Source: a virus. Taken from it: a stretch of 31,667 nt of DNA. A model generated the notes under the pieces. It did not search any database. It was not told the origin of the DNA and worked only from the letters and a program-made list of their open reading frames with translations. Of the stretch, positions 16,201-31,667 are shown in pieces. The stretch spans positions 1-31,667 of the IMG/VR virus record IMGVR_UViG_3300026280_000006. One strand, given 5' to 3'. The position numbers were made by a program, and so were the translations under genes. How positions within the stretch are numbered: position 1 is the first letter of the stretch; each line of letters starts with the position of its first letter.

Positions 16201-19200
16201 GTCCTCCCCAACACCAGCCTTTAGGAGTGCATGTATGGCTTCCCGACGTTTATCCCATGAGGATGTGATCAATATTCCGTCCGGTGTGCTCCAGGCGATG
16301 TAGATATCCTGCATGTCCATGAGCGGAACGTCCAACACACCAGAGATATACGCGTCCCCGGTCTTGCCGTTTATGATCAACATCTTCACGTTGGGATCGT
16401 CAAACTGCCCGGCAAGCGCACTTTTCACGATGCGTGCCGCACGCTCCATATCCATCGGGGTGTCGCGTTGCGCGTAGGTGAACCCTGTCCAGTTAGGAAT
16501 CTCCGCGGCTACCAAATCCGCTACCTTAGCGCCCTCGGAGAAATTAGATGACAAACGCATACCAGGTAGATTTAGTATTGGGAGGTCACCAAAATGTTCT
16601 TTCAGGTAGTGCCTGATCGGTGGAACCAAAACTTTATCGGAGGGATACCATTCACTGCCTAGAAGAACAACACCGTTCTTGTGGATTACCCCCCACACGA
16701 CCTTACCTGGTCTAGCGCCAAACTTCTTGCGCATTGCGTCAACGATTTTGCTGAAATCACCTGCGGCATCACCTATTCCAAAGAAGTGGTATCCTTCGAC
16801 GTCGGTCGATGCGAACGGGATGACATGCCCACTCTCGAATGCGTGTATGAGAGCAGGCGGCGGCTTGGCACCTTTCCGTGCGCTTACGACTATAACATCA
16901 GGAAACTCGATCGGTTGTTGAAGTGGGGGAGGACCTTCTTCAGTCAGATGAATGACCTTCTCCTTAGGCGCCTTACCTATCGCCGGAGCGCTCTTGAACT
17001 CTTGCATCTTCCCATGGAGCAGATCGCGCACACTCCCAGTCCGAATCACGTATGTGTCATCAATGGCTGGAGCGCAGGCATACCATGTTATCTCTGCGTT
17101 CGCAGGTAGGTCTAGTTTGCTGATCACACTCAAGACCGCTTGTGAATGCGTCCCATCAAGACCAGGCATCGGACTGATAATCACGTAGCGATCATCATCA
17201 ATCTTGTATACCGCGAAGCTCCATACCCTGGTCTTCTGCGCGTAACTGTCGCGTAGCTTGTCCGCCACCTGCGCCGGATAGCTGTTCTCCAACTTGAAGG
17301 ACGAAAACTTCGAAGCTTTTCCGTTGGGACGCGCCGACCACACACCCAACAACTCGCCCTTGCCCATGTTCAACTCAGAAAGTGCAGACGAGGCGGTCGA
17401 AATCTGTCCTGGTGGAATGTGTTTAGGAGGTGCAGTGGTGACGGCAGGAACCCCCACTGCCTCCCACTTACCCAACGCCGAGTTGAATTGTGGCATCTCC
17501 GCATGGATGCGCAGGTCGTGTGGGACGCTCCTGACAAGCCGTTTGAAGTCACGACCAAGCAACCTCAAAGAGCGCCGCACATCCTTCGCATTCATGAACG
17601 AAGGCGCATTCGGTGTTGTCGCGCGGTGCATAATATTGAGGAGTTTTACCTTCTCATCCAGACCTAACTGACCATACGGCTTACCCACCGCATCAACCAC
17701 AAACTTATGGAATTGGGCAAGCACATCCTCTGGGAGCGGTTTCCCGTACTTGGGAACAGCGCCAGTGATCAAGTTCATCTGGTAGGCATGCTCCATGACG
17801 ACATAATCGACGATGTACTCATCACTGGCAGCCACCAACATGTCATATGGGAGGTCAAATCCAGTTATATCCGCGGCCTCGTTGAAAAGGCGGCTGGCAT
17901 ATGCCTTATCCATGTGGTCAACAACGTCGTCGTAGATTTTCTTAATGTCCTGCATGAAGTCATGCAGTTTCGCCGCGGCCTCCTCAGGGCTGTCCGGAAC
18001 CGGGCTGGCCAGATACCTCGCCAACAGCTCACGCTGTGCCGCTGTCGCTTGATTGATCACATTGCGCTGGTCGTTGGCCAGCTCCTCGATGATGTGGTTA
18101 GCACGCAACTGATCCTTGGGAGCCGCCGTCAACGCCTTCATCTGTGCACGCGCATACAGCTCGCGCAGCTTGTTGTCTTGATCACTGACGTAGACAGCCA
18201 ACTCCTCAATTGCCTTCGCGATCGCGGGCTCATCAAGCTTGGGCACTTCCCTCGCGGTGTGATCCGCTGCAGACGCCACAATATCTACCGCCTCCGCGGA
18301 GAGTGATCCTGGAACAGGGCCAGGAGATGGCGGTTGCATATCAGCAATGCGTTTCAAATGATCCCGCAGATGTGCGCTCAACGCGTTGAGCTGGTTGATG
18401 TACTCGTCTGGAGACGAACTGGTCAGCGCCGCCAACTCAAGCGCCTGTGACAGGTCAGTCATTCCCAGGTCGTGCATCGCCTGCTCAATCTCCGGCGGAA
18501 GCTGCCTCCACGGCGCCCACGAGACTGATACGCTTGAGGGAGTGACCGACGCACCCTTCTTGGATAGGTAGTCCATGATCTCCTTCTGCAAGTGCTGTGG
18601 CCACTCACTCCCCATCCGTAACACACGCGCAACGCGCCCTTGTAACCACTTCATCGCCTGCGGGTCGCTCTTGAACACCGACGCCAGATCATCCGGCATC
18701 TGTGCAAATATGATCGCTGTGGCATCCTTAGACAACTGATTGACAGCGCGCTCAAACGCCTGCCCAACAACAATCTCGGACGCCAACTGCTCACCGCGCT
18801 GTCCTAACACAAGTCCGATGGTGGTTATACCCGGCTTCGCCATCTCCTCTGCAGCACCAATCCCACGCGAGGCTGCAAATATGCGTGCACCAACACGTTG
18901 CGCGATTTCCTTAGCACGCAGCGACGCGAACGGGCTGTACCCTACCATTGCGATAGACATAAGATTGCTCGCCATGTTGTTCACAGCGTAGCCTATATTC
19001 ATTCCCATGAACAGGCGGGAGAATATCCTGTCCAACGCTGCACGCTTGCGCAGGACCCCACGCACCGGGGATAACGACTTCTCCCACGACGGCGTTGGAA
19101 TCAGTTCCTCCAACACACGGTGCATTTTCTTTGTCCATAGTCTTGACACATCATCCGGGGACACGATCTTGCCAAGCCGCAACGCCTTGCTGATATCGCC

Positions 19201-21045
19201 GATATTACCTTCATTGTCTGTGACCATGCGACGCAGTATCAGCCCAAGCGTGCGTCCAGATCGTGAGGTAGGAACACGCCCTAATCCAAGCTGCTCAAGC
19301 ACAACCGCAGCGGCGCGGACCTCCTCAATGTTGTCAGACGCCAGCTTGACCATGTTCTCAGCCACCAACGACATCACCGCCTGGAAGCGCGATGCGTACT
19401 CCTTGGCAAACTCCTCAGTGCCCTCCTTGATACCACGCGCCACGACGTCAGGGTCTGCCAACATGCGCGCCCTGACGCGCTTGGAGATCACACCAGAAAT
19501 AAACTCTGCCATCTGCGAGGCGTCAGAGACCGTCTTGTACACCTGTGTGTCCTTGACGCGTGGAGCGACGAGCGCCATGAACTTCTCCACAGGTCCGGAC
19601 GCAGCGCGCGTCTGTCCTTTCACAGTTGCAAGGTCACGCAACCATTGCTCCACCTGGCTCGTCGGCGCAAGGTTCTTGAGGATGAACTCGGAGAGGGCAG
19701 CCTCATCAAGCCCCTTCGGTATCCTCACACCCTCAGCAAGCAACGGGCTCATGAGCTCACGGTGCCGTGCAATGGCAGAGGAGTGTCGAATGGCTCCAAT
19801 ACCAGACTCTAAGACGTTGATCGGGTCGAAAACCACCCTCCCGATGAATTCCTTGAGCGAGTCCTCATATAGTGCACGCAGCTCTTCAATGCGCGCCGAT
19901 GAGACGTTCGGCCCCTCACGCAGGATGGCGTTGTAGAGAGCACGCATGCGAATTTCGCCGCTGTACGTTGATCCCAGTGCCGCACTGAACGCACGGCGCT
20001 TCTCCGGCGTGTCCACTCCCCACTCCGCGGCTTTGTTCCCGTAGAGGATCGAGCCAAACCCCGTCTCCGCTACGCGCGCAGAGGCATCGTACACTTTTAG
20101 CACCGCGTCCACGACCGTTGGAATGACCCAATCCAGATTCAGCCCAGACGCGCCTTGATTCATCCATTGTTTTTGGAATTCCTCACTGCTCTTAATACGT
20201 TCTTCAGGCGCGGCTGCGCCAAGCCGTACTTGCGGAGGCGGTGTGGTCTGTGGCGTCGTAGCTGTGATATTGGAAATCCCTTCAGCCACGCGACGCTTTA
20301 TGTCATTCCATGCGTCGACCGCCCATTCCTTGAGGTAGTTGAGCGGTGAAGAATCCGTACTCCATCCATGCTCGGCGATCGGATTCTCAGGCTCACGGGT
20401 CTCTTCTTCCTTAGGCTTGGGTACCTCTGGCTCCTCTTCCAACGGTGTGGGCGTCGTCAGATAACGGAATGCCTTGGATATACCACCGTTGAACAGGAGC
20501 TCCCACACCGCCTTCCCGACAACACCTGGGAACGTAGGGACGACGTCCTTCACCGCTGAGGCCCACCCAAATGCCTCAACACCGCTTCCCGGCGTTTCCT
20601 CCAATGGCTTGGCAAGCACAGACTCCGACTGCACCGTAGGAGATGGAGCGCCAGACTGAACAGGCGCGGCAGAGGTCACCTCACTGACGGTTGGAGCACG
20701 CGTTGTAATGTTCTTCTCCAACGTATCACCAGCAGGGAGTTCTATGTATGTCCGTGGCTTCCCCTCTGGATAGATGTCATAACGGTTCGCCATCCAGCGC
20801 CGCATCTGGTACTCATTACCGATGTAGCGTGGATGTGGCCTCCAATGGCCCGGTGCGACGTTACTTCCCCAACGGTAATCCAGCCACGGTGATCTTGCAG
20901 GAAGCCCACGTATGATCGTGCGCATCGGCGTGCCACCACCACTAATCTCCCTAGCACCGGTTCGGAAAGGCGGTGGTGGTGGAGGAGGAGTAGGTGGTGA
21001 TGGAGAGGGTGTTTTACCTCCACCGTCGGTTCCGGTAAACTTCAT
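10231..21045 (-). CDS. Giant virion-associated polyvalent-type protein with HELLH metallopeptidase motif (3,604 aa)
   Basis: One uninterrupted frame. Residues 1-45 are Gly/Pro-rich and low-complexity; residues up to about 280 remain Pro/Glu-rich. About 320-770 is helical and includes a hydrophobic segment (FMGMNIGYAVNNMASNLMSI, near 680-700) seen in large phage ejection proteins. About 1,170-2,600 is a long alpha/beta stretch without recognised motifs. H2703-E-L-L-H2707 followed by EAFAE (E2738/E2742) is a gluzincin-like zinc metallopeptidase motif. About 3,050-3,250 (FPWGYWYTRMIPKW and following) resembles the LPD38-type associated domain of polyvalent proteins. The C-terminal ~250 residues are helical. 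Position beside portal, scaffold and capsid genes suggests it is packaged and injected. GGTGAGG precedes the ATG at 21,045. N4 also packages a ~3,500-residue protein, its virion RNA polymerase, but I do not see polymerase motifs here. Confidence 0.8.
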   Translation of the reverse strand: MKFTGTDGGGKTPSPSPPTPPPPPPPFRTGAREISGGGTPMRTIIRGLPARSPWLDYRWGSNVAPGHWRPHPRYIGNEYQMRRWMANRYDIYPEGKPRTYIELPAGDTLEKNITTRAPTVSEVTSAAPVQSGAPSPTVQSESVLAKPLEETPGSGVEAFGWASAVKDVVPTFPGVVGKAVWELLFNGGISKAFRYLTTPTPLEEEPEVPKPKEEETREPENPIAEHGWSTDSSPLNYLKEWAVDAWNDIKRRVAEGISNITATTPQTTPPPQVRLGAAAPEERIKSSEEFQKQWMNQGASGLNLDWVIPTVVDAVLKVYDASARVAETGFGSILYGNKAAEWGVDTPEKRRAFSAALGSTYSGEIRMRALYNAILREGPNVSSARIEELRALYEDSLKEFIGRVVFDPINVLESGIGAIRHSSAIARHRELMSPLLAEGVRIPKGLDEAALSEFILKNLAPTSQVEQWLRDLATVKGQTRAASGPVEKFMALVAPRVKDTQVYKTVSDASQMAEFISGVISKRVRARMLADPDVVARGIKEGTEEFAKEYASRFQAVMSLVAENMVKLASDNIEEVRAAAVVLEQLGLGRVPTSRSGRTLGLILRRMVTDNEGNIGDISKALRLGKIVSPDDVSRLWTKKMHRVLEELIPTPSWEKSLSPVRGVLRKRAALDRIFSRLFMGMNIGYAVNNMASNLMSIAMVGYSPFASLRAKEIAQRVGARIFAASRGIGAAEEMAKPGITTIGLVLGQRGEQLASEIVVGQAFERAVNQLSKDATAIIFAQMPDDLASVFKSDPQAMKWLQGRVARVLRMGSEWPQHLQKEIMDYLSKKGASVTPSSVSVSWAPWRQLPPEIEQAMHDLGMTDLSQALELAALTSSSPDEYINQLNALSAHLRDHLKRIADMQPPSPGPVPGSLSAEAVDIVASAADHTAREVPKLDEPAIAKAIEELAVYVSDQDNKLRELYARAQMKALTAAPKDQLRANHIIEELANDQRNVINQATAAQRELLARYLASPVPDSPEEAAAKLHDFMQDIKKIYDDVVDHMDKAYASRLFNEAADITGFDLPYDMLVAASDEYIVDYVVMEHAYQMNLITGAVPKYGKPLPEDVLAQFHKFVVDAVGKPYGQLGLDEKVKLLNIMHRATTPNAPSFMNAKDVRRSLRLLGRDFKRLVRSVPHDLRIHAEMPQFNSALGKWEAVGVPAVTTAPPKHIPPGQISTASSALSELNMGKGELLGVWSARPNGKASKFSSFKLENSYPAQVADKLRDSYAQKTRVWSFAVYKIDDDRYVIISPMPGLDGTHSQAVLSVISKLDLPANAEITWYACAPAIDDTYVIRTGSVRDLLHGKMQEFKSAPAIGKAPKEKVIHLTEEGPPPLQQPIEFPDVIVVSARKGAKPPPALIHAFESGHVIPFASTDVEGYHFFGIGDAAGDFSKIVDAMRKKFGARPGKVVWGVIHKNGVVLLGSEWYPSDKVLVPPIRHYLKEHFGDLPILNLPGMRLSSNFSEGAKVADLVAAEIPNWTGFTYAQRDTPMDMERAARIVKSALAGQFDDPNVKMLIINGKTGDAYISGVLDVPLMDMQDIYIAWSTPDGILITSSWDKRREAIHALLKAGVGEDVPFVWFGPQGDGTISLYYNTIMNVGISRPSTVYRGVPRDVTIDFSGVVFNPYGEFDSYFHSVVTGVRDIDTLRELFKANLGVPVEMFYSYNVRSKTLRVMSGERRTISADTLAGWIESLRGVPFPEDTVVEIPEYGVRIGLKELLDRKLADDPSVPLWLGMVDRMNVPELGIQAYFYRTSDRAVTVTLVGGDVELEDVYDIIGANPDLIPNASKWRVLVRERHGGLRTIADDIKFPPMTHADLSVESISRSAPYHSRARGSWGWGVFEIHGERLTTHLTMRSDVYLADLNNDFAVRHLRPVPDLSRKVLRIPIMPGSVGPEIYIPENFPIVEGKFYYNTVDKLRITRVEDMPRYFNVAEMRDIMDDLLGRTANSYVMIDSDMMLGQAAKRSQHMFRLDRYGAFMFEDHIVYPGMVSAHVDNVAARITLVGNAADIRRVLERIPDDIPYRFRVVDYAMAITHNRSIDDMWDMSREEALRYLDDIIGGPPKKVSFGSRVVEPRLVVDENNNPIAFSYDDVLEIVGERQYSGGTMAGDGVVSLVVDNGKVWFYVGNVPYSDYVRDLTGAEHILHPRAVLIGRYSTLTKRINWVTVRDHPLDRNVVEAIALAANENPAILDDYIVTLDGNCVEVSELLLRSMNVDKEPLSPGMARGIREMKEDTAELRRVMETTLAGPEPRRIDGFFSSLRWIPQYVRSKDNRMMQWAAVLMDENVFHPNKRLLVVFSENPIEARDLVMHGKAYGTPRAVITVERGPISDGVNVMFVDKQPLPIDLLNLGLGGNKEVSIKMAPVDAPRASTYGSTPLGMSFTMRVPSTLTDEEWKWFTGNLEHIPVYSRIAILPKEKEKHVVGVFPMYWRWQDRGIEVPAPYTMPWWEISYAMNTDVDNLIMLEMVGQNHMRLIPSKVPVERAIEVLKDIGFPRFGVILEVPDVGVLYPERGTISDFEKAIAQIENNLLNLDLNNPQTWYLARNVELEGWKKKTIAMLNMEEAVAARKEVERIVADFIASERLSKEYVMGMLDSMARAWGDTYQQPSIYWYQLFNIKVKELRNGAAGEFVADFKSVTENMPFLRGLVKLDPLYGTNPETLIHELLHFAEQWLPFDDRLVLSEYFGISPYAWDRDAVEAFAELGVSYLTRHKDLPENLLGVFERVFDFIRNMIRHAMRWLTKQPAHTIPPEVMAVYDRVLGVLEASPRAQEHMRAKAAALRRVIENAKALYSKDASSLQRLYTMDSIYDDLIRYDRLEPGGEHVVDELLSRFAVRSEAVPEDEVTKMTREAAEEMPRPGDTSPIPKTPFAYFKDESGRIHHVLTPGRPEWLGNEITKEDYINYLNDIEARVAHNPHAKVLVDSMRNAINNPKPLPGPGALDQVTFNTEKALEFIDAAIRHAQSVSAPQTDEVIRRAIGPLDDSLAQWIRKIESYQSDIYAAATWYATFVRNEALLDYPDRRTIDFILQLIFPWGYWYTRMIPKWASSIATSPALWAFYFKLKQAIRNSNVGNLDLPDWARGSLVLRPPGFDGHIYWNIERTFFPVSTLFEVFDDEDRTRDVLGRALTQLGSFGPSPHPLLWWAYAAERALLKEDRDALRAIGYLAPVTRAFASLTGTVLEPWLWIRDPYTGELRAGVGGTKWNLARATRYLSELQRRGIVSPDAAVYAAATRSGPSFEHALWEVLKIQRIPALFAVLTGLRVTPRGTWEDELARHTQRYVELSKQVGSSEAARRVLNDAPWVGVAWMAYDNDLTRLSSLTWDVLRRVPPGDLRRKIFNTAGLTDVMLNKFYEDKGDLSRWHPRDVEALQRAVIDLALKLKSPEREKVLEFEEARKRRSALYREAEGLFPGIQDKQAEYFRIAARDGKEAANAYAAQVGLFKYWDWLRNKIVNDPILLRYYADPEDVDRVAWSIVETAAESYWPGIHALNEAYWNLHSQNRKRAMDLLKQNPQLSRYWKWRKEALELVKSRLKDLREEAGSGKMDISMYPIEETITQKALGEVIR

Positions 21046-25336: not shown

Positions 25337-25591
25337 TCACCCCATTAAAGGCGGTGGTGGAAGCGTCCCCGGCGACGGTGTTGTGGTGGTCCGTCGACGT
25401 AGCGGGCCAATCGGAGCGGCACCACCCGCCATCGTCATGCCCATCGCAGCGGCTGTAGGCACAGATGGCGGCGCGATGGGCAACGGCTCTACTTCCTCAT
25501 TCACAACATCAATGCCAAGCAGGCGCTCGATCACACGCAGGCGCCGATCGAGGTCCTCAATCGTAACGGGAACGTCATGGTCTCCTTCCAC
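25337..25591 (-). CDS. Small helical/Pro-rich protein, GTG start (84 aa)
   Basis: The GTG start at 25,591 overlaps the terL stop by one base and has GGAGGG about 7 nt upstream. Residues 1-30 form a charged helix (TIEDLDRRLRVIERLLGI) that could be a short coiled coil. The rest is Pro, Ala and Thr-rich and ends PPPPLMG. It lies between large terminase and portal. No family is recognised. A packaging or portal-associated role is only positional. Confidence 0.65.
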   Translation of the reverse strand: MEGDHDVPVTIEDLDRRLRVIERLLGIDVVNEEVEPLPIAPPSVPTAAAMGMTMAGGAAPIGPLRRRTTTTPSPGTLPPPPLMG

Positions 25592-27204
25592 TAATTAACC
25601 CTCCACACAAGGCGATCTCGCACAGTCTCGACTGCTTGCTCTAACTCATCAAACACCCAGAAGCGCCGCCGCGGACGTTCAGGCATGTTCTCGGAAACAT
25701 TATACCCCTTCGATAACAAACTGTCAAGTAGTGGTTGGAGGTAGTTCACCGCCTGGGTGAGCGCGTCCACACGGTCGTCGTGTGCCGCGAACGGGAACGC
25801 ACTCAACTCCTCGATAAATCCGTCTGCCCACGGCGGTGGGGTGTTGGGGGAGGGGTAGAGCAAGCACAGCGCCTTCAATCCGACCCAGCGCATGGTGTAC
25901 TGCGCACGGGATACCTTATCCTTATCCGGTGTGATGGGGATGATGTGATGCATTGCCAGCCTTGGGTCGCGCCGCAGCGACTTGAATGCGACGTTCTGCG
26001 ACGCCACCGCCTCCACCAGGATCACAACCTCCCTTCCGTCCTGTTGTGCCATCGCAAGGATTTTCTCTGCGGACTCATTCCACTCGGCACGCCAGCGGGC
26101 ACAGTCCTCAACGACCAGCAGCGTATGCCCCTCCTTGTGATACACCGTAAGGAGCAACCCGACCGTGGCATCGGCGTGCTCGTCCGCGCTAAACGCCAGG
26201 TCATAAGAACGCACACGCGCAGCCACCTTGTACCCTTCCTCGACCAGCTGCGCCTGCGTCACCGCACGGATGTTGGCGCGCTCGAACATATTCCCCCGCG
26301 GCGCGACCGGGGAGCATTGGTACAGCCCTTGGTATTGGTAGCCCAACAACTCCTTAGCACGCCGCAGGAACTCACGGTCATAACCCATCTCCGGCCACAA
26401 CGGCGTCCCGCGCGGCCGCCCCAACGCGTCAGGGAAGATATACTTCCGCGAGAACGGATCAAGCGCATTCACATACGCTTCATCACACGTCGGATCGGTC
26501 CACGTCCCCAAACTCTCCGCGGGCAGCGCCAACACACGGAAATCCTTCCCCTCCGGGGAGTCCAATATCCGCCCTGCCAGGTCGCCCTCCGCCCAGTGCG
26601 TCATCACCACCAACACCTTCCCCTCACCGACGAGGCGTGTGCGCGCGGTGGTGGTATACCACATCCAGTTGCGCTCCTGCACGCTGGGCGAAACCGCCTC
26701 CTCGAAGTTCTTCACCGGGTCATCGATGATGAGCAAATGCGCCCCGTACCCGGTGATGCCGCCGCCCACACCTGCGGCGATCACGGTGTCACGGTACCCA
26801 TGCAACGCCCACCGGAACGCCGCACGTTGATTTGCGGACACGCGCACACCGGCGAACACCTCCCGGAACGCCGGACGCCCGTCGATGATGTCGCGCACTG
26901 CGATGCTGAACGACTCCGCCAGCGTCGCGGTGTGCGCGGTGATGATAACACGATGTGCTGGATTCCTTCCCAAGTACCACGCTGGGAAGAGCTGCGTGCA
27001 CGTCCAGCTCTTCCCACTGCGCGGCGGCATCAGGATGATCAACCGCCTTATCTCCCCCTCGGCGAGCTGCTGTAGGTGCTCCGCGATGAGCCGGATGTGC
27101 GGCGGCGCAGCATACGTCGGCTCCACCAGCTGCGCGAAGGTGATAAAATCCCGCCGCGCCAATGCCAGCCTGGCAGCCCGCCGCAGCTCCTCGGGGTCGA
27201 TCAT
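25591..27204 (-). CDS. terL: Terminase large subunit (537 aa)
   Basis: This is the packaging motor ATPase and nuclease. Walker A is MPPRSGKS (residues 59-66). Walker B is HLLIIDDP (residues 156-163, D161/D162). VMTHWAEGDLAG (about 201-212) is the coupling motif. The C-terminal RNase-H-like nuclease has RSYDLAFSADEHADATVG (first Asp), the ILVEAVASQN block and AAHDDRVDALTQAVNYL (last Asp). All catalytic residues expected for this family are visible. The ATG overlaps the small-subunit stop as ATGA (27,201-27,204), giving coupled translation. Length is typical. Packaging mode (pac, cos or terminal repeats) cannot be inferred. Confidence 0.95.
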   Translation of the reverse strand: MIDPEELRRAARLALARRDFITFAQLVEPTYAAPPHIRLIAEHLQQLAEGEIRRLIILMPPRSGKSWTCTQLFPAWYLGRNPAHRVIITAHTATLAESFSIAVRDIIDGRPAFREVFAGVRVSANQRAAFRWALHGYRDTVIAAGVGGGITGYGAHLLIIDDPVKNFEEAVSPSVQERNWMWYTTTARTRLVGEGKVLVVMTHWAEGDLAGRILDSPEGKDFRVLALPAESLGTWTDPTCDEAYVNALDPFSRKYIFPDALGRPRGTPLWPEMGYDREFLRRAKELLGYQYQGLYQCSPVAPRGNMFERANIRAVTQAQLVEEGYKVAARVRSYDLAFSADEHADATVGLLLTVYHKEGHTLLVVEDCARWRAEWNESAEKILAMAQQDGREVVILVEAVASQNVAFKSLRRDPRLAMHHIIPITPDKDKVSRAQYTMRWVGLKALCLLYPSPNTPPPWADGFIEELSAFPFAAHDDRVDALTQAVNYLQPLLDSLLSKGYNVSENMPERPRRRFWVFDELEQAVETVRDRLVWRVN

Positions 27205-27623
27205 TCTGACGCCTCCGTCTGCACAATGCGCCGCAGGTCGTCGGTGTTCAAGCGCTCATCGAGCATGTCGACCAGCGCCGTCATGTCGACGGGCGCCATC
27301 GTCTGGCTGCGCGCATCCACAAAGACGTTGTTGTAGGACAGCTGCACATGATACATCCCACGCTGGTGTTCGAGGAGGATTTTCAACAAGAGCAGGGTCG
27401 AGCGCTCGGAGAGCCTGTCATCCTTAAGCATCTGCTGAACCTTGCGCACCGTCTGCGTCGTAAGTGTGTTCAGGCGACGCTCCAACACAGGTCGGGGCTG
27501 TTGGGGACTGTAGAGCTCCCGGCGCAGCTTGCGCACATAGGCTGGAGAGACTTGAAAGCGCGCAGCAATCGCTACGACGTCTTCCTCACCGGATTTGAGC
27601 GCTTGAATGATCTGATCCTTCAT
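27201..27623 (-). CDS. terS: Terminase small subunit (140 aa)
   Basis: An N-terminal helix-turn-helix (VVAIAARFQVSPAYVRKLRR) is followed by a helical oligomerisation region (VRKVQQMLKDDRLSERSTLL) and a C-terminal tail. This is the DNA-recognition subunit that brings the phage genome to TerL, which directly follows with an ATGA overlap. The frame could open at a GTG at 27,644, but that codon lies inside the predicted promoter, so ATG 27,623 is chosen. No Shine-Dalgarno site precedes that ATG, and the predicted transcript would start at about the ATG itself. Confidence 0.85.
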   Translation of the reverse strand: MKDQIIQALKSGEEDVVAIAARFQVSPAYVRKLRRELYSPQQPRPVLERRLNTLTTQTVRKVQQMLKDDRLSERSTLLLLKILLEHQRGMYHVQLSYNNVFVDARSQTMAPVDMTALVDMLDERLNTDDLRRIVQTEASE

Positions 27624-27658
27624 AGCTTTACAATAACACAACACAGGAAAAATGTCAA
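27623..27658 (-). promoter_or_regulatory. Predicted late promoter, leaderless transcript
   Basis: TTGACA (27,658-27,653) and TATTGT (27,635-27,630) are separated by 17 bp. Only 6 nt (AAAGCT) separate the -10 box from the terS ATG, so transcription would begin at about the A of the start codon. This is the only good sigma70-type promoter seen for the leftward operon. Confidence 0.6.
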
Positions 27659-27665
27659 GGACAGG

Positions 27666-27720
27666 TTAGTTGCGGATTCGGGTAGACTTTGTCTGGATAA
27701 ATGTCGATTAGTTGCGGATT
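27666..27720 (+). repeat. 13-bp direct repeat TTAGTTGCGGATT
   Basis: Identical copies lie at 27,666-27,678 and 27,708-27,720, 42 bp apart, just upstream of the leftward promoter. They may bind a regulator of terS transcription. Confidence 0.8.
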
Positions 27721-27772
27721 TGGGGAGGGGGTCTAGCGCGCCAATACCCCGTCCCGTGCCAACCAGTCCCGT

Positions 27773-27798
27773 GGCAAATCTGCTGGCGCAGATTTGCC
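27773..27798. repeat. Perfect 11-bp hairpin in control region
   Basis: GGCAAATCTGC and GCAGATTTGCC flank the 4-nt loop TGGC. There is no T run, and it lies upstream of both divergent operons, so it is not an obvious terminator. Confidence 0.8.
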
Positions 27799-27799
27799 G

Positions 27800-27829
27800 A
27801 GGTTTGCGTAGGTTGGCGCAGGTTTCTGG
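27800..27829 (+). repeat. Three 10-bp-periodic AGGTT repeats
   Basis: AGGTTTGCGT, AGGTTGGCGC and AGGTTTCTGG follow one another without gaps. The period is about one DNA helical turn, so bound proteins would line up on one face of the helix. Confidence 0.6.
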
Positions 27830-27848
27830 CGGATGGCGGTTGGCATTG

Positions 27849-28160
27849 GCGTTATGTCAAGTCGGCACGCGCGGCTCGCGTTGGGCCAGCGCCACACGCA
27901 CGTTGACATAACGCGGCTAGCCCCACACGCACGTTGACATAACGCACCTAGCGTTGGGTTAGGGCCACATACGGTTGCGTTGGGTTAGCGCCACACGGGG
28001 TCGCAGTGGAGTTGCGGCACACCCGCCTGGACGTGTGGCACTACCGCCGCCGGCACGGCCATTGAACGCCACCGTTTCATCCCCAGCGGCGACCGCTGCC
28101 TAGGTAGCAGTGCGGCTACCTGGCCACCGCACCCCCACCCCAACACCCGACTTGACATAA
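27849..28160. repeat. TTGACATAA iterated sites (three direct, one inverted)
   Basis: An inverted copy lies at 27,849-27,860 (GCGTTATGTCAA). Direct copies of TTGACATAACGC lie at 27,903-27,914 and 27,934-27,945, inside an identical 23-bp repeat (27,892-27,914 and 27,923-27,945). A shorter copy, TTGACATAA, lies at 28,152-28,160. No -10 box follows any of them at promoter spacing, so iteron-like protein binding is more likely. Confidence 0.65.
27878..27997 (+). repeat. Three copies of GCGTTGGGxxAGxGCCACA
   Basis: Copies start at 27,878, 27,951 and 27,977, and they interleave with the TTGACATAACGC repeats. The core is GCGTTGGG followed by TTAG or CCAG and then CGCCACA or GGCCACA. Confidence 0.75.
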
Positions 28161-28163
28161 TCA

Positions 28164-28190
28164 CCCCCCACCCCCGCACCCCCACCCCCC
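28164..28190 (-). other. G-quadruplex-forming tract on the minus strand
   Basis: The plus strand has C runs of 6, 5, 5 and 6 separated by 1-3 nt, so the minus strand carries four G runs with very short loops. Additional C runs lie at 28,125-28,149. Such a tract can fold into a stable quadruplex in single-stranded DNA or leftward RNA. Confidence 0.7.
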
Positions 28191-28242
28191 TTTTATGACG
28201 CACAGTGCCGCAAACCGCAGCCCCGCGAAAGGTCTGTAGGGT

Positions 28243-28258
28243 AAATGTTATAACATTT
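28243..28258. promoter_or_regulatory. 16-bp perfect palindrome, operator candidate 1
   Basis: AAATGTTATAACATTT is a perfect inverted repeat. It is one of three copies of AAATGTNATNACATTT in the control region and is typical in form of a site for a dimeric regulator. Confidence 0.65.
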
Positions 28259-28274
28259 CAACCCAAAATTTGTA

Positions 28275-28292
28275 TCACAATGTGTATTGTGA
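28275..28292. repeat. Inverted repeat TCACAAT / ATTGTGA
   Basis: Seven-base arms flank GTGT. The inner CACAATGTG also recurs as CACATTGTG at 28,372-28,380 and 28,556-28,564, and CACAATTTTGTG lies in promoter P1. Confidence 0.6.
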
Positions 28293-28474
28293 AGAATTTC
28301 ACTAACATTTCGTCCAGAGCGCATACCGAAATGTAGGTTTACACAGGTTTTTTATTTGTGCGACAACCGCCCACATTGTGCTACGCCTGTGGCGCATTGC
28401 CGTAGAATGTAGGTTTACTTAGAATAAACGCGTCACACGACGCAGATTGTGAAGAATTTCACTAACATTTCGTC
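28286..28474 (+). repeat. 29-bp identical direct repeat
   Basis: Copies lie at 28,286-28,314 and 28,446-28,474. Each contains the dyad GTGAA-N4-TTCAC and a half-palindrome, TAACATTTCG, related to the 16-bp operator-like sites. Further direct repeats nearby are AATGTAGGTTTAC (28,330-28,342 and 28,406-28,418) and a 21-bp repeat with two mismatches (28,362-28,382 and 28,546-28,566). Confidence 0.85.
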
Positions 28475-28520
28475 TAGAAAACCTACTAAAATCTATAGCA
28501 CAGTGCCAATAGTGTAGGTT

Positions 28521-28536
28521 AAATGTCATGACATTT
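28521..28536. promoter_or_regulatory. 16-bp perfect palindrome, operator candidate 2
   Basis: AAATGTCATGACATTT has the same outer arms as the other two sites, with C/G in place of T/A near the centre. The co-variation of the two positions keeps the palindrome perfect. Confidence 0.65.
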
Positions 28537-28645
28537 CGCGCGTGTGACAATCACCCACATTGTGCTCCATATGTAACACAGCCAAATTCTAACAAAAACT
28601 ACATCGTTATGTAAAGTAAAATCTACGAAAATCTACATTCATCTA

Positions 28646-28743
28646 ACTAAAAGGGTGAAAAACCGCACGCGAAAGGGTACTACATTGTAGTTTACACATT
28701 AAATGTTATAACATTTGCGCGACGAGTTTTTCACCCTTTTAGT
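28646..28743. repeat. Long inverted repeat, 18-bp perfect arms, enclosing a palindrome
   Basis: Arms at 28,646-28,663 (ACTAAAAGGGTGAAAAAC) and 28,726-28,743 are exact reverse complements. The 62-nt interior holds ACTACATTGTAGT (28,679-28,691) and the third AAATGTTATAACATTT. The structure could form a cruciform or a DNA loop upstream of promoter P1. Confidence 0.8.
28701..28716. promoter_or_regulatory. 16-bp perfect palindrome, operator candidate 3
   Basis: AAATGTTATAACATTT is identical to candidate 1, lies inside the 18-bp inverted repeat, and is 104 bp upstream of the -35 box of promoter P1. Confidence 0.65.
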
Positions 28744-28819
28744 GAGATTTTCTAACGTTGTGGTACACACCTGTAACACACCCACCTGTTCGACCTGGGA
28801 AAGAAACCCTTCTGCCCCC

Positions 28820-28848
28820 TTGACAGACGCACAATTTTGTGGTACAAT
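28820..28848 (+). promoter_or_regulatory. Rightward promoter P1
   Basis: TTGACA (28,820-28,825), a 17-bp spacer and TACAAT (28,843-28,848). The spacer contains CACAATTTTGTG, a near-palindrome that overlaps the space between the boxes and could be an operator. It drives the first rightward genes. Confidence 0.85.
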
Positions 28849-28871
28849 GTAATCAGAGAGAGGGTAAAGAA

Positions 28872-29240
28872 TTGGCAGACCTATACGACAAAAAGGTCTA
28901 TCGAGTTATAAACCTGGGCCGCCAGGACACCAGGCTGCCTGGCGGCAGCACGGTAACAGGTTGGTGGACTTCAGAGGTGAAGTCCACCTTGAACCTGATC
29001 AGGGATATCGTCGAGGCGACGTTCGCCTTCGACGGCGGGTTCCCCTGGGAAGACGAGCTAATTGTGCTCGTCGCATCCCAAGGGGACTGCGAAATATCCC
29101 AGGATGGCCCCCGCACGGGGCCGTACAATCCCCGGTATGACACCGGGGAACTATTTGTGACGGCGGTCAGCCGTTACGAGAGGTTCAGCTGGCGTAAGTT
29201 CGCCCAGGCTATGGGCGAAGACCCTGACAAGTGGGTCTAG
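28872..29240 (+). CDS. Early protein of unknown function, TTG start (122 aa)
   Basis: The frame is open further upstream, to a GTG that lies inside promoter P1 and is excluded. The TTG at 28,872 has GAGAGGG 7 nt upstream and lies about 17 nt after the expected transcription start. The protein begins MADLYDKKVYRVINLGRQ. It is mixed alpha/beta with no recognised motif, signal or membrane segment, and ends FAQAMGEDPDKWV. First gene of the rightward operon. Its coding sequence contains a chain of stem-loops (28,918-28,946; 28,963-28,988; 29,041-29,086; 29,129-29,149 among others), and its stop codon lies within a large hairpin. Confidence 0.75.
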   Translation: MADLYDKKVYRVINLGRQDTRLPGGSTVTGWWTSEVKSTLNLIRDIVEATFAFDGGFPWEDELIVLVASQGDCEISQDGPRTGPYNPRYDTGELFVTAVSRYERFSWRKFAQAMGEDPDKWV

Positions 29241-29249
29241 CCCATAGCC
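29199..29249 (+). promoter_or_regulatory. Two mutually exclusive hairpins at the end of the first early gene
   Basis: Hairpin A pairs TTCGCCCA (29,199-29,206) with TGGGCGAA (29,212-29,219). Hairpin B pairs GGCTATGGGC (29,207-29,216) with GCCCATAGCC (29,240-29,249) and contains GACCC/GGGTC inside. They share bases, so only one can form at a time, which is the layout of an attenuator or switch. No U tract follows. Confidence 0.5.
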
Positions 29250-29285
29250 CGGGCGTAAGAAAAATTTGACAGGAGGCAGTCAAAA

Positions 29286-29537
29286 ATGAAACCCATTGAC
29301 AGAGAATTAATACGCGCCCATTTAGTCATTCTGAACTGTCCCCACTGCGGGGAAAAGTGGCAGTACCTAGGGAAAGACCCTAGGGACTGCGAAACCCCTG
29401 TCGAGTGCCCTAACTGCAGTGAAGGGACACCAGAGTATGGGGACTGGATCGAGTCAGAGATTGCTCTACTGGGGAACGACTTCATGGTCTTCCTCCAGGA
29501 AGGCAGGTGGGATGTGTTTCGTTTGACGCGGGTCTAG
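29286..29537 (+). CDS. Zinc-ribbon early protein (83 aa)
   Basis: Two cysteine pairs, CPHCG (about residues 18-22) and CPNC (about residues 41-44), form a zinc ribbon with a 20-residue spacing. The remainder is a small acidic alpha/beta domain (YGDWIESEIALLGNDFMVFL). AGGAGG lies 9 nt before the ATG. It is the second gene of the P1 operon. Zinc ribbons of this type are common in small phage regulators, but no specific role can be given. The gene contains the stem-loop at 29,361-29,389 (outer CAGT/ACTG, inner CCTAGGG/CCCTAGG). Confidence 0.75.
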   Translation: MKPIDRELIRAHLVILNCPHCGEKWQYLGKDPRDCETPVECPNCSEGTPEYGDWIESEIALLGNDFMVFLQEGRWDVFRLTRV

Positions 29538-29563
29538 TACAGCCTGCCAAAAGGAGGTAAGAA

Positions 29564-29599
29564 ATGAACGTACAACAGCGCCTGGCTGGGGCGCGATAA
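29564..29599 (+). CDS. 11-residue leader-like peptide
   Basis: ATG to TAA encodes MNVQQRLAGAR behind a near-perfect ribosome site (AAAGGAGG, about 6 nt upstream). It is too short for a folded protein. It lies at the start of a strongly structured stretch that ends in an intrinsic terminator, like a leader peptide, or it may be the remnant of a deleted gene. Confidence 0.4.
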   Translation: MNVQQRLAGAR

Positions 29600-29666
29600 A
29601 TGCCAGCTGGGGGTTTCCCAGGCACGTCAGTCGTGCCTGCAATAGCCCCCACTTGCTTTACGTTCA
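29565..29666 (+). ncRNA. Structured RNA candidate closed by an 8-bp long-range stem
   Basis: TGAACGTA (29,565-29,572) pairs with TACGTTCA (29,659-29,666) and encloses GCGCC/GGCGC (29,578-29,594), GGGGG/CCCCC (29,609-29,613 with 29,646-29,650) and the perfect hairpin CAGGCACG/CGTGCCTG (29,619-29,639). Alternative pairs (CTGGC/GCCAG; CTGGG/CCCAG) compete. It is followed at once by a terminator, so it may be a small RNA, a structured 3' end, or a leader. No known RNA family is recognised. Confidence 0.45.
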
Positions 29667-29672
29667 GACACG

Positions 29673-29714
29673 AAAAGACAGCAGGGGGTGGCGTCAATCC
29701 TCTGCTGTCTTTTT
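29673..29714 (+). terminator. Intrinsic terminator T1
   Basis: AAAAGACAGCAG and CTGCTGTCTTTT form a 12-bp stem, extendable by G-U and G-C pairs, ending in TTTTT. It closes the P1 transcription unit about 60 nt before promoter P2. Confidence 0.85.
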
Positions 29715-29774
29715 GTGCGTGCACTCTACCCCTGTTACTGGCAAAGAACTCTGACGCGTGTGCGCTCCACCCTC

Positions 29775-29803
29775 TTGACAAACGCCAAATTTTGTGATAC
29801 AAT
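29775..29803 (+). promoter_or_regulatory. Rightward promoter P2
   Basis: TTGACA (29,775-29,780), a 17-bp spacer and TACAAT (29,798-29,803). It shares most of its spacer with P1 (ACGC, then AATTTTGTG) and the downstream GTA-TCA. The start gene follows after GGAGGAGGGA. Confidence 0.88.
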
Positions 29804-29828
29804 GTAGTCAAAAAGTTGGAGGAGGGAA

Positions 29829-30134
29829 ATGATAGACAAGGAACTACTGAAGCAAGCGGACAGCGCACCGCTGCCCACAGCGGTGGATATAATGAGAAGC
29901 GCATTGACACTGGCCCGCATTGACGCGGGCTATGTGCCTTTCAAGGGGAGAAGCGGCAGGCGCACGCTGCGTTTTGCGCGTGCGCTGCTGGACGCGATGG
30001 AGCGTCCGCCAATTAGAATAGGAGAGGAGGAGCGGCGCGCGCTGGAGGCCCTCGAGGCCTTTCGGCGCGCGCCGTACGTCATTATCGGCGAACGCAAGTT
30101 CGCCGTGATAGAAGTAAGACGCAGGAGATGGTAA
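29829..30134 (+). CDS. Early basic protein of unknown function (101 aa)
   Basis: Starts with ATG behind GGAGGAGGGA. The protein is helical and basic (SGRRTLRFARALLDAMER, EEERRALEALEAFRRAPYVI) and ends in EVRRRRW. No motif is recognised. It is the first gene of the P2 unit and overlaps the next gene by one base (TAATG). The coding sequence contains stem-loops at 29,866-29,885, 29,913-29,930, 29,960-29,985, 29,990-30,007, 30,033-30,074 and 30,086-30,105, the last with a GCAA loop of the GNRA type. Confidence 0.75.
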   Translation: MIDKELLKQADSAPLPTAVDIMRSALTLARIDAGYVPFKGRSGRRTLRFARALLDAMERPPIRIGEEERRALEALEAFRRAPYVIIGERKFAVIEVRRRRW

Positions 30135-30478
30135 TGTTTAAGACATTCAGAGAAAGTGCTTTAGAAGCGCTCGAAGAGGCCTCCTTGGCCCTCAAGAAAG
30201 GGTCAAAAGTGGAGGCAGAGGCAAAAGTGCGGTACGCCCTAGACATAGTGGGCGTGCCCACGCCGTTCCGTGAGGGCACGCCTGATATTGCGGCGGCCCG
30301 CCAGTTGCTGGAGGTGTTCTGTCCGCACGACAGAACCGTGTACCCCACCGTCGAGGTGGGAAAAGCGGTTGTCCTAGAGGCGGACAGCCCCACGGCACAA
30401 ATTATAATCCGTATGGCCAAGAAAGGCGTGTGTGCCGTCGCTGAAGACGGCACCACGTTCTACGCAGTAGAGCTATAA
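30134..30478 (+). CDS. Early protein of unknown function (114 aa)
   Basis: The ATG at 30,134 is chosen over the ATG at 30,128 because AGGAG lies 6 nt upstream of it and the upstream stop overlaps it as TAATG. Residues 1-40 form an amphipathic, TPR-like helix pair (FRESALEALEEASLALKKGS). The rest is mixed alpha/beta. No family is recognised. Stem-loops at 30,155-30,171, 30,251-30,282, 30,316-30,336, 30,344-30,360 and 30,432-30,453 are embedded in it. Confidence 0.75.
   Translation: MFKTFRESALEALEEASLALKKGSKVEAEAKVRYALDIVGVPTPFREGTPDIAAARQLLEVFCPHDRTVYPTVEVGKAVVLEADSPTAQIIIRMAKKGVCAVAEDGTTFYAVEL
30381..30408 (+). promoter_or_regulatory. Weak internal promoter candidate P3
   Basis: CGGACA (four matches to TTGACA) and a perfect TATAAT (30,403-30,408) are separated by 16 bp inside the 114-aa gene. 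If active, it would start transcription just before terminator T2 and supply the ATPase gene. Confidence 0.3.
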
Positions 30479-30481
30479 CAC

Positions 30482-30517
30482 ACCCGTCCAACCCACGGTA
30501 GCGTGGGTTGGACGGGT
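30482..30517 (+). terminator. Very strong hairpin T2, terminator/attenuator before the ATPase gene
   Basis: ACCCGTCCAACCCACG and its exact complement form a perfect 16-bp stem with a 4-nt loop (GTAG), followed by TTTCATT. No good promoter lies between it and the ATPase gene 24 nt downstream, so it probably attenuates rather than fully ends transcription. Confidence 0.75.
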
Positions 30518-30540
30518 TTCATTCACTGGAGGAGGGAAAC

Positions 30541-31632
30541 ATGAATAAGAGTGCAACAGAACAGGTCGCAATTACTTTACAGACGGGCGTCCCTGTGCTG
30601 CTGCACGGGGACCCCGGCGTAGGGAAGACGCAGGGGCTGCGCGCAATCGCGCGCGCCCTAGGGCGCACGCTCCACGTGCTGGAGTTGGCGCTCCTGTTAC
30701 CTGAAGACCTTGGAGGTATCCCCTACGTCCAGGACGGGGTAGTGCGTGTGGCGCCACCCCACTGGCTTACAGGCGTAGGGGAAGGCGATGTGCTGTTCCT
30801 GGACGACCTTGGCGCGGCGCGTCCAGCGACACTGAATGCCGCGCTGGGTCTCATCCTGGAGCGGCGCGCGGGCGTGCACGCGCTGCCCGCAGATGTCGCT
30901 ATTGTGGCGGCGACGAACGCCGCCACCCAGTACGGGAACGCGGATATACCGCTGCCCGTACTGACTAGGATGGCACACGTGGAGGTCGGCCTCGACGTCG
31001 AGGCCTGGGCAGAGGGGGTGATTGCGGACTTTCCCACCCCCAAAGTGCCCATAGTGCCACCAGATTGGCGGGGATACTTGCCTATCTGGCGCGCGCGCGT
31101 CGCCGCGTTCGCGCGCGCCCTGGGGCATGCCCACCCATCCCCACTCCATGGGGACGAGATTGCCGAAGGCGACTATACCGTGCCTACCCCACGAGGGTGG
31201 CACGGCATCGCGCTGCCGCTGCTGGCGGCCTGTCACGCGGTGTTCGGAGAGGCTGCTATGTGGGCGACGGCGTTCCCACTGCTGTGCGGGGCAGTGGGGC
31301 GTGGTGCAGCAGCACAGTTTCGGGGATGGGTTGAGACCGTTCGGTTGCCGTCCCCACAGGAGCTGCTCTCAGGGGCGCCGCTCCCCACGCGGCCAGAAGA
31401 GATGTGGGCCGCGCTGTCCCAGCTGGCTGCGTGGGCGGCCAATTCGGCCGACCTGCCCCAGTTGTGGGAGGCGTGTTGGGATGTTGTATTGAGGGCGTTT
31501 GAGTCGTCCGAGGATGCCGCCGTGCCTGCCATGCGCGTCCTGGCACAGGCAGGGGTGCGCAATCGCCTGCGCATCCCCGCGGACGCGTTGAGGCACGCGG
31601 CGGCGCTGCTACGGGACGTTGGACTGATGTAG
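30541..31632 (+). CDS. MoxR-type AAA+ ATPase (363 aa)
   Basis: Walker A is GDPGVGKT (residues 23-30), Walker B is VLFLDDL (84-90), sensor 1 is IVAATN (121-126) and an arginine-finger candidate follows in VLTRM (R143). LELALLLPEDLGGIPY between Walker A and B is the insert typical of the MoxR group. MoxR ATPases usually remodel partner proteins together with a von Willebrand A-type protein encoded next to them. N4-type phages, as I recall, also carry such a pair. The ATG at 30,541 has GGAGGAGGGA upstream; the open frame extends further back, to 30,508, but across the spacer. The C-terminal 200 residues are helical and family-specific. Hairpin T2 lies upstream. Confidence 0.85.
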   Translation: MNKSATEQVAITLQTGVPVLLHGDPGVGKTQGLRAIARALGRTLHVLELALLLPEDLGGIPYVQDGVVRVAPPHWLTGVGEGDVLFLDDLGAARPATLNAALGLILERRAGVHALPADVAIVAATNAATQYGNADIPLPVLTRMAHVEVGLDVEAWAEGVIADFPTPKVPIVPPDWRGYLPIWRARVAAFARALGHAHPSPLHGDEIAEGDYTVPTPRGWHGIALPLLAACHAVFGEAAMWATAFPLLCGAVGRGAAAQFRGWVETVRLPSPQELLSGAPLPTRPEEMWAALSQLAAWAANSADLPQLWEACWDVVLRAFESSEDAAVPAMRVLAQAGVRNRLRIPADALRHAAALLRDVGLM

Positions 31633-31644
31633 GAGGAGGGAAAG

Positions 31645-31667
31645 ATGCGCAGGTCAGACATAAAGGG
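31645..31667 (+). CDS. Start of the next rightward gene (partial)
   Basis: An ATG follows AGGAGGAGGGAAAG, the same ribosome-site motif as the two preceding P2-unit genes. Only MRRSDIK is visible. By MoxR context a von Willebrand A-type partner would be expected, but nothing here tests that. Confidence 0.5.

Follow-up and report, generated by a model that had tools for sequence, protein, structure and literature searches.

The window, by which we mean the whole 31,667-nucleotide stretch analysed (positions 1 to 31,667 of IMG/VR record IMGVR_UViG_3300026280_000006), comes from an uncultured bacterial virus of a hot spring and carries a block of genes, probably early ones, that is saturated with short perfect hairpins. 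Sixteen perfect stems of at least 8 bp, with loops of 3 to 14 nt, lie between positions 28,877 and 31,298 (15 if overlaps are removed; those at 31,088 and 31,091 are overlapping registers of one site), compared with a mean of 0.4 in 20 dinucleotide shuffles of the same sequence, and the original observation of at least 15 such repeats in about 2.4 kb, where random sequence would yield about 0.4, is borne out. Fourteen of the 16 fall inside reading frames when stem coordinates are set against the ORFs and 10 have loops of 4 to 6 nt, as had also been noticed; their sequences are mutually unrelated, and 13 contain neither GCGC nor CGCG. Shuffles preserving protein and codon usage predict 1.37 stems in the five early genes, where 14 are observed, and 4.84 in 13 late genes, where 5 are observed, and positions 1 to 27,700 hold 6 stems versus approximately 5.3 in shuffles, so that the impression that late genes lack such density was correct. 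Four of the five early genes have codon-shuffle folding-energy z scores of -4.0 or lower, whereas the most negative score among the 13 late genes (those longer than 3,000 nt trimmed to 3,000) is -1.84; the pooled sense-strand z of the early module is -10.9, and the late genes, at -1.35, show almost no over-folding. The excess is local, being absent from the late genes and the other early genes of both this phage and its sister. Stem counts, codon shuffles, and folding scores confirm that it is real, regional, and, as had been proposed, a matter of structure and not of one repeated sequence.

We infer the early status of the module from its gene content, orientation, and sigma-70-like promoters. 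The features of the region are as follows, with identities given to the sister phage, whose source is a Yellowstone spring (55 C mesocosms).

28,200 to 28,860, no strand assigned: AT-rich control region, a possible origin or operator, with the palindrome TAAATGT[T/C]AT[A/G]ACATTT three times and a 34-nt inverted repeat; it lies at the cumulative GC-skew minimum, and 28,533 to 28,780 is 87% identical to the sister.
28,820 to 28,848, plus strand: putative sigma-70-like promoter, TTGACA-17-TACAAT, as read from the sequence.
28,872 to 29,240, plus strand: unknown protein (TTG start picked by eye), the gene densest in stems (28,918-28,946, 28,963-28,988, 29,129-29,149, 29,199-29,219); z of -6.15 sense and -8.31 antisense, computed over 28,854-29,240; no Pfam match and no homologue in a viral scan.
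28,877 to 31,298, plus strand: the hairpin-saturated block as a whole, with its 16 perfect stems (8 bp or longer), 14 in coding sequence.
29,286 to 29,537, plus strand: small protein with a weak zinc-ribbon resemblance (Pfam matches all below cut-off); the exception within the block, with a z of -1.03 and zero stems of 8 bp.
29,677 to 29,714, plus strand: apparent terminator-like hairpin and trailing T5, shared with the sister.
29,775 to 29,803, plus strand: second putative sigma-70-like promoter, TTGACA-17-TACAAT, also present in the sister.
29,829 to 30,134, plus strand: unknown protein, 101 aa, 77% identity, z of -4.99; stems at 29,866-29,885, 29,960-29,985, and 30,086-30,105.
30,134 to 30,478, plus strand: unknown protein, 114 aa, 65% identity, z of -4.04; stems at 30,251-30,282, 30,316-30,336, and 30,432-30,453.
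30,482 to 30,517, plus strand: intergenic perfect stem of 16 bp; the sister carries one of 14 bp at this place, in a different register.
30,541 to 31,632, plus strand: MoxR-like AAA ATPase (AAA_5, 35.3 bits; cut-off, 22), 81% identity, z of -4.89; stems at 30,904-30,926, 31,088-31,119, and 31,275-31,298.

Viral scans and a genome scan, from which records very near the window may have been omitted, yielded this one close relative of the module. Across the greater part of the late block the two phages share 93 to 95% identity, against 76% in the early module, and the sister alignment lacks a counterpart for two genes at the head of the block. The sister module is also over-folded, with a pooled codon-shuffle z of -11.0 on the sense strand, at a perfect-stem density of 7 in 4.4 kb. 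In this single comparison the retention of individual stems is close to that expected from independent substitution, and compensatory changes show no excess over the null; unchanged pairs in stems of at least 5 bp number 146 against 129.7 expected, a difference that disappears with a stricter null. Half of what had been put forward as grounds for refutation was thus found, since stems and pairing are not conserved in the relative, but early folding scores are far below those of late genes and shuffles; the phenomenon survives the loss of individual stems because the relative has its own pattern of over-folding in the module. Each lineage folds more strongly than the other predicts: given the sister, the window has 10 perfect stems versus 3.7 predicted, and given the window, the sister has a z of -4.84 sense versus -1.72 antisense. 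The same genes are over-folded in the sister, mostly through other stems, so that structure itself, and not any particular stem, is what is rewritten or selected.

The two modules differ in strandedness. The energy excess per 120 nt of the window is -8.0 sense and -8.5 antisense, an antisense/sense ratio of 1.07, whereas the sister is sense biased (ratio, 0.76; strand-difference z, -2.11). Thirty-two equilibrium runs of simulated selection for sense-RNA folding, begun from random coding sequence at 37, 60, or 70 C, gave ratios of 0.36 to 0.79 and mean perfect-stem counts of 2.5 to 5.0, and a separate set of simulations gave a mean of 1.1, versus 14 in the 2.4 kb of early coding sequence; stems of at least 6 bp had simulated means of about 10 to 19 versus 39 observed. 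Sense-mRNA selection at 37 to 70 C therefore reproduced neither the strand symmetry of the window nor its perfect Watson-Crick stems. A comparison of G-T with A-C mismatches was dropped when calibration indicated that it does not tell the strands apart.

We suggest, and hold this loosely as the best of several readings none of which commands even odds, that a strand-blind process acting on DNA keeps writing perfect inverted repeats with short spacers, often of 4 to 6 nt, into the early module, which adjoins the control region. Its most likely form would be the homogenization of quasi-palindrome arms by template switching, in which the polymerase, during replication or repair, uses one arm as its template for the other; ordinary substitution would then erode the stems, and the module would stay saturated while single stems turn over because writing continues as stems decay. 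On this reading a weaker selection for folded sense mRNA would act in addition and be visible in the sister. The homogenization mechanism, its direction (judged without an outgroup), and any link to an origin are our inferences. Strand symmetry and a perfect-stem number beyond that of simulated sense selection argue for this reading, as do the unconserved pairs, the lack of compensatory excess, and over-folding of the window beyond what its sister predicts. Stems of 6 bp or longer are spread evenly over the codon phases (13, 12, and 14 of 39; at 8 bp they are too few), amino-acid differences are equally frequent within and outside stems of at least 8 bp (13 of 55 codons versus 118 of 524), and amino-acid order alone adds to folding in the window (z of about -3), all of which are compatible with writing at the DNA level. 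Template switching had been among the causes originally listed; it fits the symmetry and the perfect stems but leaves no clear footprint, as window-sister differences are not concentrated in one arm and an arm-copy scan of the coding sequence, with low power at this divergence, gave no excess over the null. At the 30,482 intergenic stem, one loop side seems inverted in the sister, a possible inverted spacer. Simulated homogenization with 22 events reached mean z scores of only -3.5 sense and -4.5 antisense, far short of -11. The leaning of the sister to sense also counts against DNA-level writing, as do the weak excess in gene 29,286-29,537 and the slightly lower frequencies of amino-acid differences in stems of 6 to 7 bp or more (0.19 versus 0.23) and of silent differences in stems of at least 8 bp (0.36 versus 0.42 outside). 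A bolder version, to which we give rather little credence, is that the DNA of a defined module is constantly being turned into perfect hairpins, whether through synthesis templated by hairpins close to an origin or through some dedicated activity, and that this rewriting, about as fast as ordinary substitution, shapes the codon choice and protein sequence of early genes.

A close rival, itself plausible but short of probable, is that selection favours local folding in early mRNA, which would be the DNA-phage counterpart of genome-scale ordered RNA structure (GORS). Short stable hairpins might resist RNases, heat, or RNA-targeting defence or might hinder Rho loading and backtracking, and stems would drift because the identity of the paired bases is irrelevant. 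The excess is present in both phages although their stems differ, as in GORS (available part of PMC7642675), the ratio and stem density of the sister fall within the range of simulated sense selection, and G-U pairs in window stems of at least 7 bp are retained more often than the null predicts (20 versus 14.6; P, 0.015), which tells against DNA-level writing. So does the sharp start of the excess at the first gene of the block, the 300 bases upstream having none; mRNA selection would also suit the surroundings of start codons, which are less paired than the remainder of the genes. Against mRNA selection stand the symmetry and perfect-stem count of the window, which lie outside all simulations, and the lack of excess in the late genes and remaining early genes of either phage and in stretches of five thermophilic phages. 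Ordered mRNA structure, as originally proposed, is consequently weakened as sole driver for the window, although it fits the sister; protection of RNA by covering has also lost ground, as there is no depletion of open 8-mers at 37 C and the paired fraction is raised only modestly at 60 to 70 C.

Structured single-stranded DNA, another of the four causes named at the outset, is possible, but we think it unlikely that the module is single stranded or strongly supercoiled at entry, replication, or transcription and that hairpins or cruciforms are selected for a function. Simulated selection for single-stranded DNA folding was strand symmetric in all 8 runs, as the window is, and the module adjoins the repeat-rich control region at the GC-skew minimum, but those runs yielded 0 to 3 perfect stems per 2.4 kb versus 14, and many unrelated intragenic stems match no known DNA-hairpin signal. 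Less likely still, the module came from a donor lineage in which one such process operates, with nothing special occurring in the present phage; its lower identity and the two genes without counterpart would suit an exchange, but the sister's version is over-folded too, the trait is therefore older than the exchange, and the question merely moves to the donor. Chance or composition is refuted: the module is somewhat GC richer than the genome (0.557 and 0.615 at 29 to 31 kb) and 3 of the 16 stems contain GCGC or CGCG, but composition-preserving dinucleotide and codon shuffles give 0.4 and 1.4 stems, and the late stretch at 26 to 27 kb, with a GC content of 0.631, holds one.

No stretch of 15 named control phages reaches the stem density of the window. 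In 15- to 20-kb stretches of RM378, TMA, GBSV1, THSA-485A, and phiOH2, maxima are 2 to 6 stems per 2.4 kb and the lowest 2.4-kb z scores are -0.7 to -2.1; thermophily in general was rejected as the cause, since these five thermophilic stretches lack saturation, although Thermus phage P23-45 is over-folded. Nor is saturation a trait of terminase relatives (17 loci, L003 to L019, none with more than 3 stems per 2.4 kb) or of AAA or DUF2201 genes, for which 17 distant relatives (5 of 5 AAA and 12 of 13 DUF2201 loci, the sister excluded and L057 left out) have 1 to 7. The matched gene is over-folded in five of these 17 (z of -3.5 to -4.5), among which L032 to L034 agree in value and length and probably represent a single gene; over-folding without stem saturation thus does occur in some relatives. 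Bacterial loci L036, L037, and L038 have up to 3, 4, and 6 stems per 2.4 kb. A conserved structured RNA element was rejected, as Rfam gave five weak microRNA-model matches in 27,600 to 31,667, none at cut-off, and compensatory changes are not in excess; no tRNA array was found. Among the open-licence titles that literature searches listed, none concerned a hairpin-saturated module in a double-stranded DNA phage.

Among known systems, the hairpin promoters of the phage N4 virion RNA polymerase are likewise short hairpins in an early region, but, in the available part of PMC4496689, they are few, have conserved bases in common, and serve an injected polymerase, whereas the window hairpins are many, unrelated in sequence, intragenic, and beside putative sigma-70-like promoters. 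We rejected this type for want of shared bases, and Pfam and PHROGs, which remote forms could escape, identified no virion RNA polymerase in the 3604-aa protein. REP-like repetitive palindromes were also rejected, as the stems differ and 14 of 16 lie inside genes, in contrast to L060, where one GC-rich hairpin is repeated among 7 stems. P23-45 is similar in being thermophilic and in having, by annotation, a VWA-domain gene adjoining an AAA-type protease gene; the 69 genes tested there show over-folding in their averages (mean z of -1.65, -1.83, and -1.47 in three regions), and tiles between 39.8 and 42.2 kb average a z of -2.6, as in the module of the sister, but its over-folding is spread along the genome, and over the first 50 kb the perfect stems never exceed 7 per 2.4 kb. 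Ordinary selection on intragenic mRNA folding, as far as described in the part of PMC7063772 available, also makes folding stronger inside genes and weaker near starts; here, the effect is restricted to one module.

Template switching is known to homogenize arms and invert spacers in coding genes (available part of PMC8604942), and the perfect arms, short spacers, and indifference to strand and codon phase seen here are what it would produce; perfect short-spacer arms without strand preference are found in the window and not clearly in the sister. The events described in that part are rare and scattered (39 yeast genes), whereas here a whole module would be affected, and no arm-copy footprint is seen. 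Should the cause prove mutational, the module is a natural site for measuring template switching together with what it does to proteins; should it prove selective, the question becomes what early phage mRNAs must withstand. GORS, as set out in the available part of PMC7642675, resembles our case in an energy excess over shuffles throughout coding sequence and in poorly conserved pair positions among relatives. Both modules fold beyond sequence-order controls (z of -10.9 and -11.0) and, in the one relative compared, folding is conserved while pairs are not, but of the two only the sister is biased to the sense strand. The excess over codon shuffles, 18.6% for the window and 14.8% for its sister, is comparable to or larger than the approximately 8% of HCV and 11% of human pegivirus, obtained with a different shuffling method. 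Unlike GORS, which is genome wide in RNA genomes, the excess occupies one module of a double-stranded DNA phage and is, in the window, strand symmetric and rich in perfect short stems. Strongly folded coding sequence, familiar from RNA viruses, is thus found in a single DNA-phage module that keeps its folding while its stems turn over, and the contrast between early and late genes within one genome provides an internal control that RNA viruses lack.

The window, a 31,667-bp linear virus record from IMG/VR, is organized as two divergent blocks, the left 27.6 kb forming a single leftward block; the features that matter here are as follows.

1,156-4,281, leftward block: tail-tip protein
8,545-9,567, leftward block: major head protein
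10231-21045, minus strand: ORF for a 3604-aa protein
25,591-27,204, leftward block: terminase large subunit (Terminase_6N match)
28200-28860: AT-rich, repeat-rich region between the divergent blocks, adjoining the early block

The 3604-aa protein contains a zinc-peptidase-like HELLH stretch, spotted by eye, and searches of Pfam and PHROGs gave no confident match. The rightward block starts at 28.87 kb and continues past the end of the record; its position, a MoxR-like AAA ATPase (AAA_5 match) and two sigma-70-like promoters identified by eye suggest that it comprises early genes.

Perfect stems (8 bp or more, loops of 3-14 nt) are concentrated in this early module: 16 lie within 28,877-31,298, against 0.4 in dinucleotide shuffles, and the first 27.7 kb contain 6, against about 5.3. 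Codon shuffles, which preserve protein and codon usage, yield 1.37 stems for the five early genes, which contain 14, and 4.84 for 13 late genes, which contain 5; ~20% of early bases, compared with 4% of late bases, belong to arms of perfect stems at least 6 bp long. Folding energy relative to codon shuffles gave z values of -6.15, -1.03, -4.99, -4.04 and -4.89 for the early genes and -1.84 to +1.13 for the 13 late genes. In 100-nt tiles, z remained between -0.5 and 0.9 across 28,501-28,900 and then fell to -6.1 at 28,901; a few tiles farther left in the control region reached -2.4 to -3.3. The excess is local, being fully present with pair span limited to 30-50 nt, and approximately equal on the two strands (-8.0 sense and -8.5 antisense per 120 nt). 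No reduction in open 8-mers was seen at 37 C, and the paired fraction of the window was modestly raised at 60 C (0.576 versus 0.541) and 70 C (0.541 versus 0.499). In the early genes (28872-31632), but not in the late genes, amino acid order itself favors folding (z about -3); the early proteins look as if they had been shaped by stems, part of this signal perhaps being a residue of the shuffling method.

A terminase scan recovered one close relative, a 53,321-bp record (the sister). Late-block segments of 19.7, 2.6 and 2.3 kb are 93.7%, 94.0% and 95.1% identical to the window and short ones 91.8% and 84.1%, and the early module is 76.2% identical over 1.9 kb. The sister module is arranged as follows.

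24.9 to 20.4 kb, minus strand: seven genes, namely counterparts of the final three genes of the window, an 87-aa protein, a DUF2201 metallopeptidase/VWA-like protein and two unknown proteins

Sense z values for these seven genes were -4.80, -1.88, -5.66, -1.58, -4.36, -4.08 and -3.20. Of the other sister genes, 18 were tested and the late ones were tiled; no sense z among the 18 lay below -3 (lowest, -2.96), and one had an antisense z of -4.04. The sister excess per 120 nt was -5.9 sense and -4.5 antisense, and the pooled energy excess over codon shuffles, 1.8% for six late genes, reached 18.6% in the window and 14.8% in the sister. The metagenome of the sister, LCB019, derives from a Yellowstone spring and was incubated at 55 C as the in situ temperature, according to PMC10033731; from this habitat we infer heat as the setting of these phages.

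Mapping window stems onto this single relative, a two-way comparison in which stem gain and stem loss look alike, revealed a slight excess of unchanged pairs in stems at least 5 bp long (146 versus 129.7, P 0.012, per-codon-position null) and no excess of restored double changes (4 versus 7.0). Under a stricter codon-permutation null (six pair sets per direction, uncorrected P values), G-U pairs were raised in window stems at least 7 bp long (20 versus 14.6, P 0.015) and WC+GU departed in the same stems (P 0.029), among the window's probable sense pairs (P 0.013) and among the sister's probable antisense pairs (P 0.017); compensatory changes were in excess in none of the pair sets in either direction. 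Folding exceeds prediction in both directions: z is -4.84 sense and -1.72 antisense for the sister's three shared genes, predicted from the window plus the substitutions seen, and -3.44 sense and -5.01 antisense for the window predicted from the sister, with 10 perfect stems versus 3.7. Thus, both lineages have kept or regained structure, largely with different pairs.

To calibrate the strand figures, selection was simulated with simple models, in few and short runs, on random coding sequence that belongs to no organism. When single-strand DNA folding was selected (8 runs), the outcome was strand symmetric, with 0-3 perfect stems. Sense-RNA selection with early stopping left 18 perfect stems in 38 kb and produced strand-difference z values of -2.3 to -6.6 in all 16 runs, against +0.65 observed for the window and -2.11 for the sister. 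Longer runs, 16 at 37 C and 16 at 60-70 C, gave antisense/sense ratios of 0.51-0.78 and 0.36-0.79; perfect stems per 2.4 kb averaged 2.5-5.0, and the highest value, 9.9, came from one short run. Imposed arm homogenization (8 runs) was symmetric, with 15-18 perfect stems by construction, and 22 events produced mean z values of only -3.5 and -4.5. Since its ratio is 1.07 with 14 perfect stems, the window looks, by these models, like the work of a process that ignores strand and makes perfect inverted repeats more strongly than the simulated one; the sister, with a ratio of 0.76 and 7 stems in 4.4 kb, fits either sense-RNA selection or a mixture.

We lean toward homogenization of quasi-palindrome arms at the DNA level, which would generate the perfect inverted repeats of the early module and is favored by the short spacers, the indifference of stems of 6 bp or more to codon phase and the equal frequency of amino acid differences inside and outside stems of 8 bp or more. 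Against it stand the sense bias of the sister, the sharp onset of the excess at the first gene and the outcome of a search for an arm-copy footprint between window and sister, which found none; selection for mRNA folding is almost as likely to be the driver. The sister DNA polymerase (L026:6645-9014, minus) carries a uracil-DNA-glycosylase domain ahead of exonuclease and PolA domains, and a third record, L039, whose coverage is confined to the polymerase region, has a 96% identical copy; that this enzyme is an actor in homogenization is speculation.

Three 17-mer palindromes, a direct repeat of 50 nt (84%) and an inverted repeat of 34 nt lie in the region at 28200-28860, and the cumulative GC skew minimum is at or beside it in both records; it could be an origin or an operator cluster, or simply regulatory DNA separating divergent operons. 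Several hairpins occupy 29540-29715, the last a terminator-like stem common to the sister; this is a possible small RNA, with no Rfam match at cutoff.

Ten named phages (seven whole, three as the first 50 kb) had maxima of 0-7 perfect stems per 2.4 kb, compared with 15 in the window and 6 in the sister, and five thermophilic phage stretches had 2-6 (z -0.7 to -2.1). For the 2.4 kb with the strongest folding, mean tile z was -1.1 to -1.9 in nine of the ten and -2.6 in Thermus phage P23-45; the window reached -3.3 and the sister -2.5. The only outlier in stem count is thus the window, and P23-45 matches the sister in folding. P23-45 (L041, 1-50000) shows moderate overfolding all along its coding sequence (69 genes tested) and, at 39.8-42.2 kb, one stretch of strong folding. 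Distant AAA or DUF2201 genes in L032, L033, L034, L063 and L064 had z values of -3.5 to -4.5 and few perfect stems. In L060:1588-4533, on a phage contig that has a DUF2201 gene, the GC-rich hairpin GGCCCGC...GCGGGCC occurs at 1588, 1959 and 4510, one repeated element, unlike the window. Perfect inverted repeats with arms of 10 bp or more across 118,019 genomes are, as surveyed in PMC13155455, mostly intergenic, again unlike those of the window.
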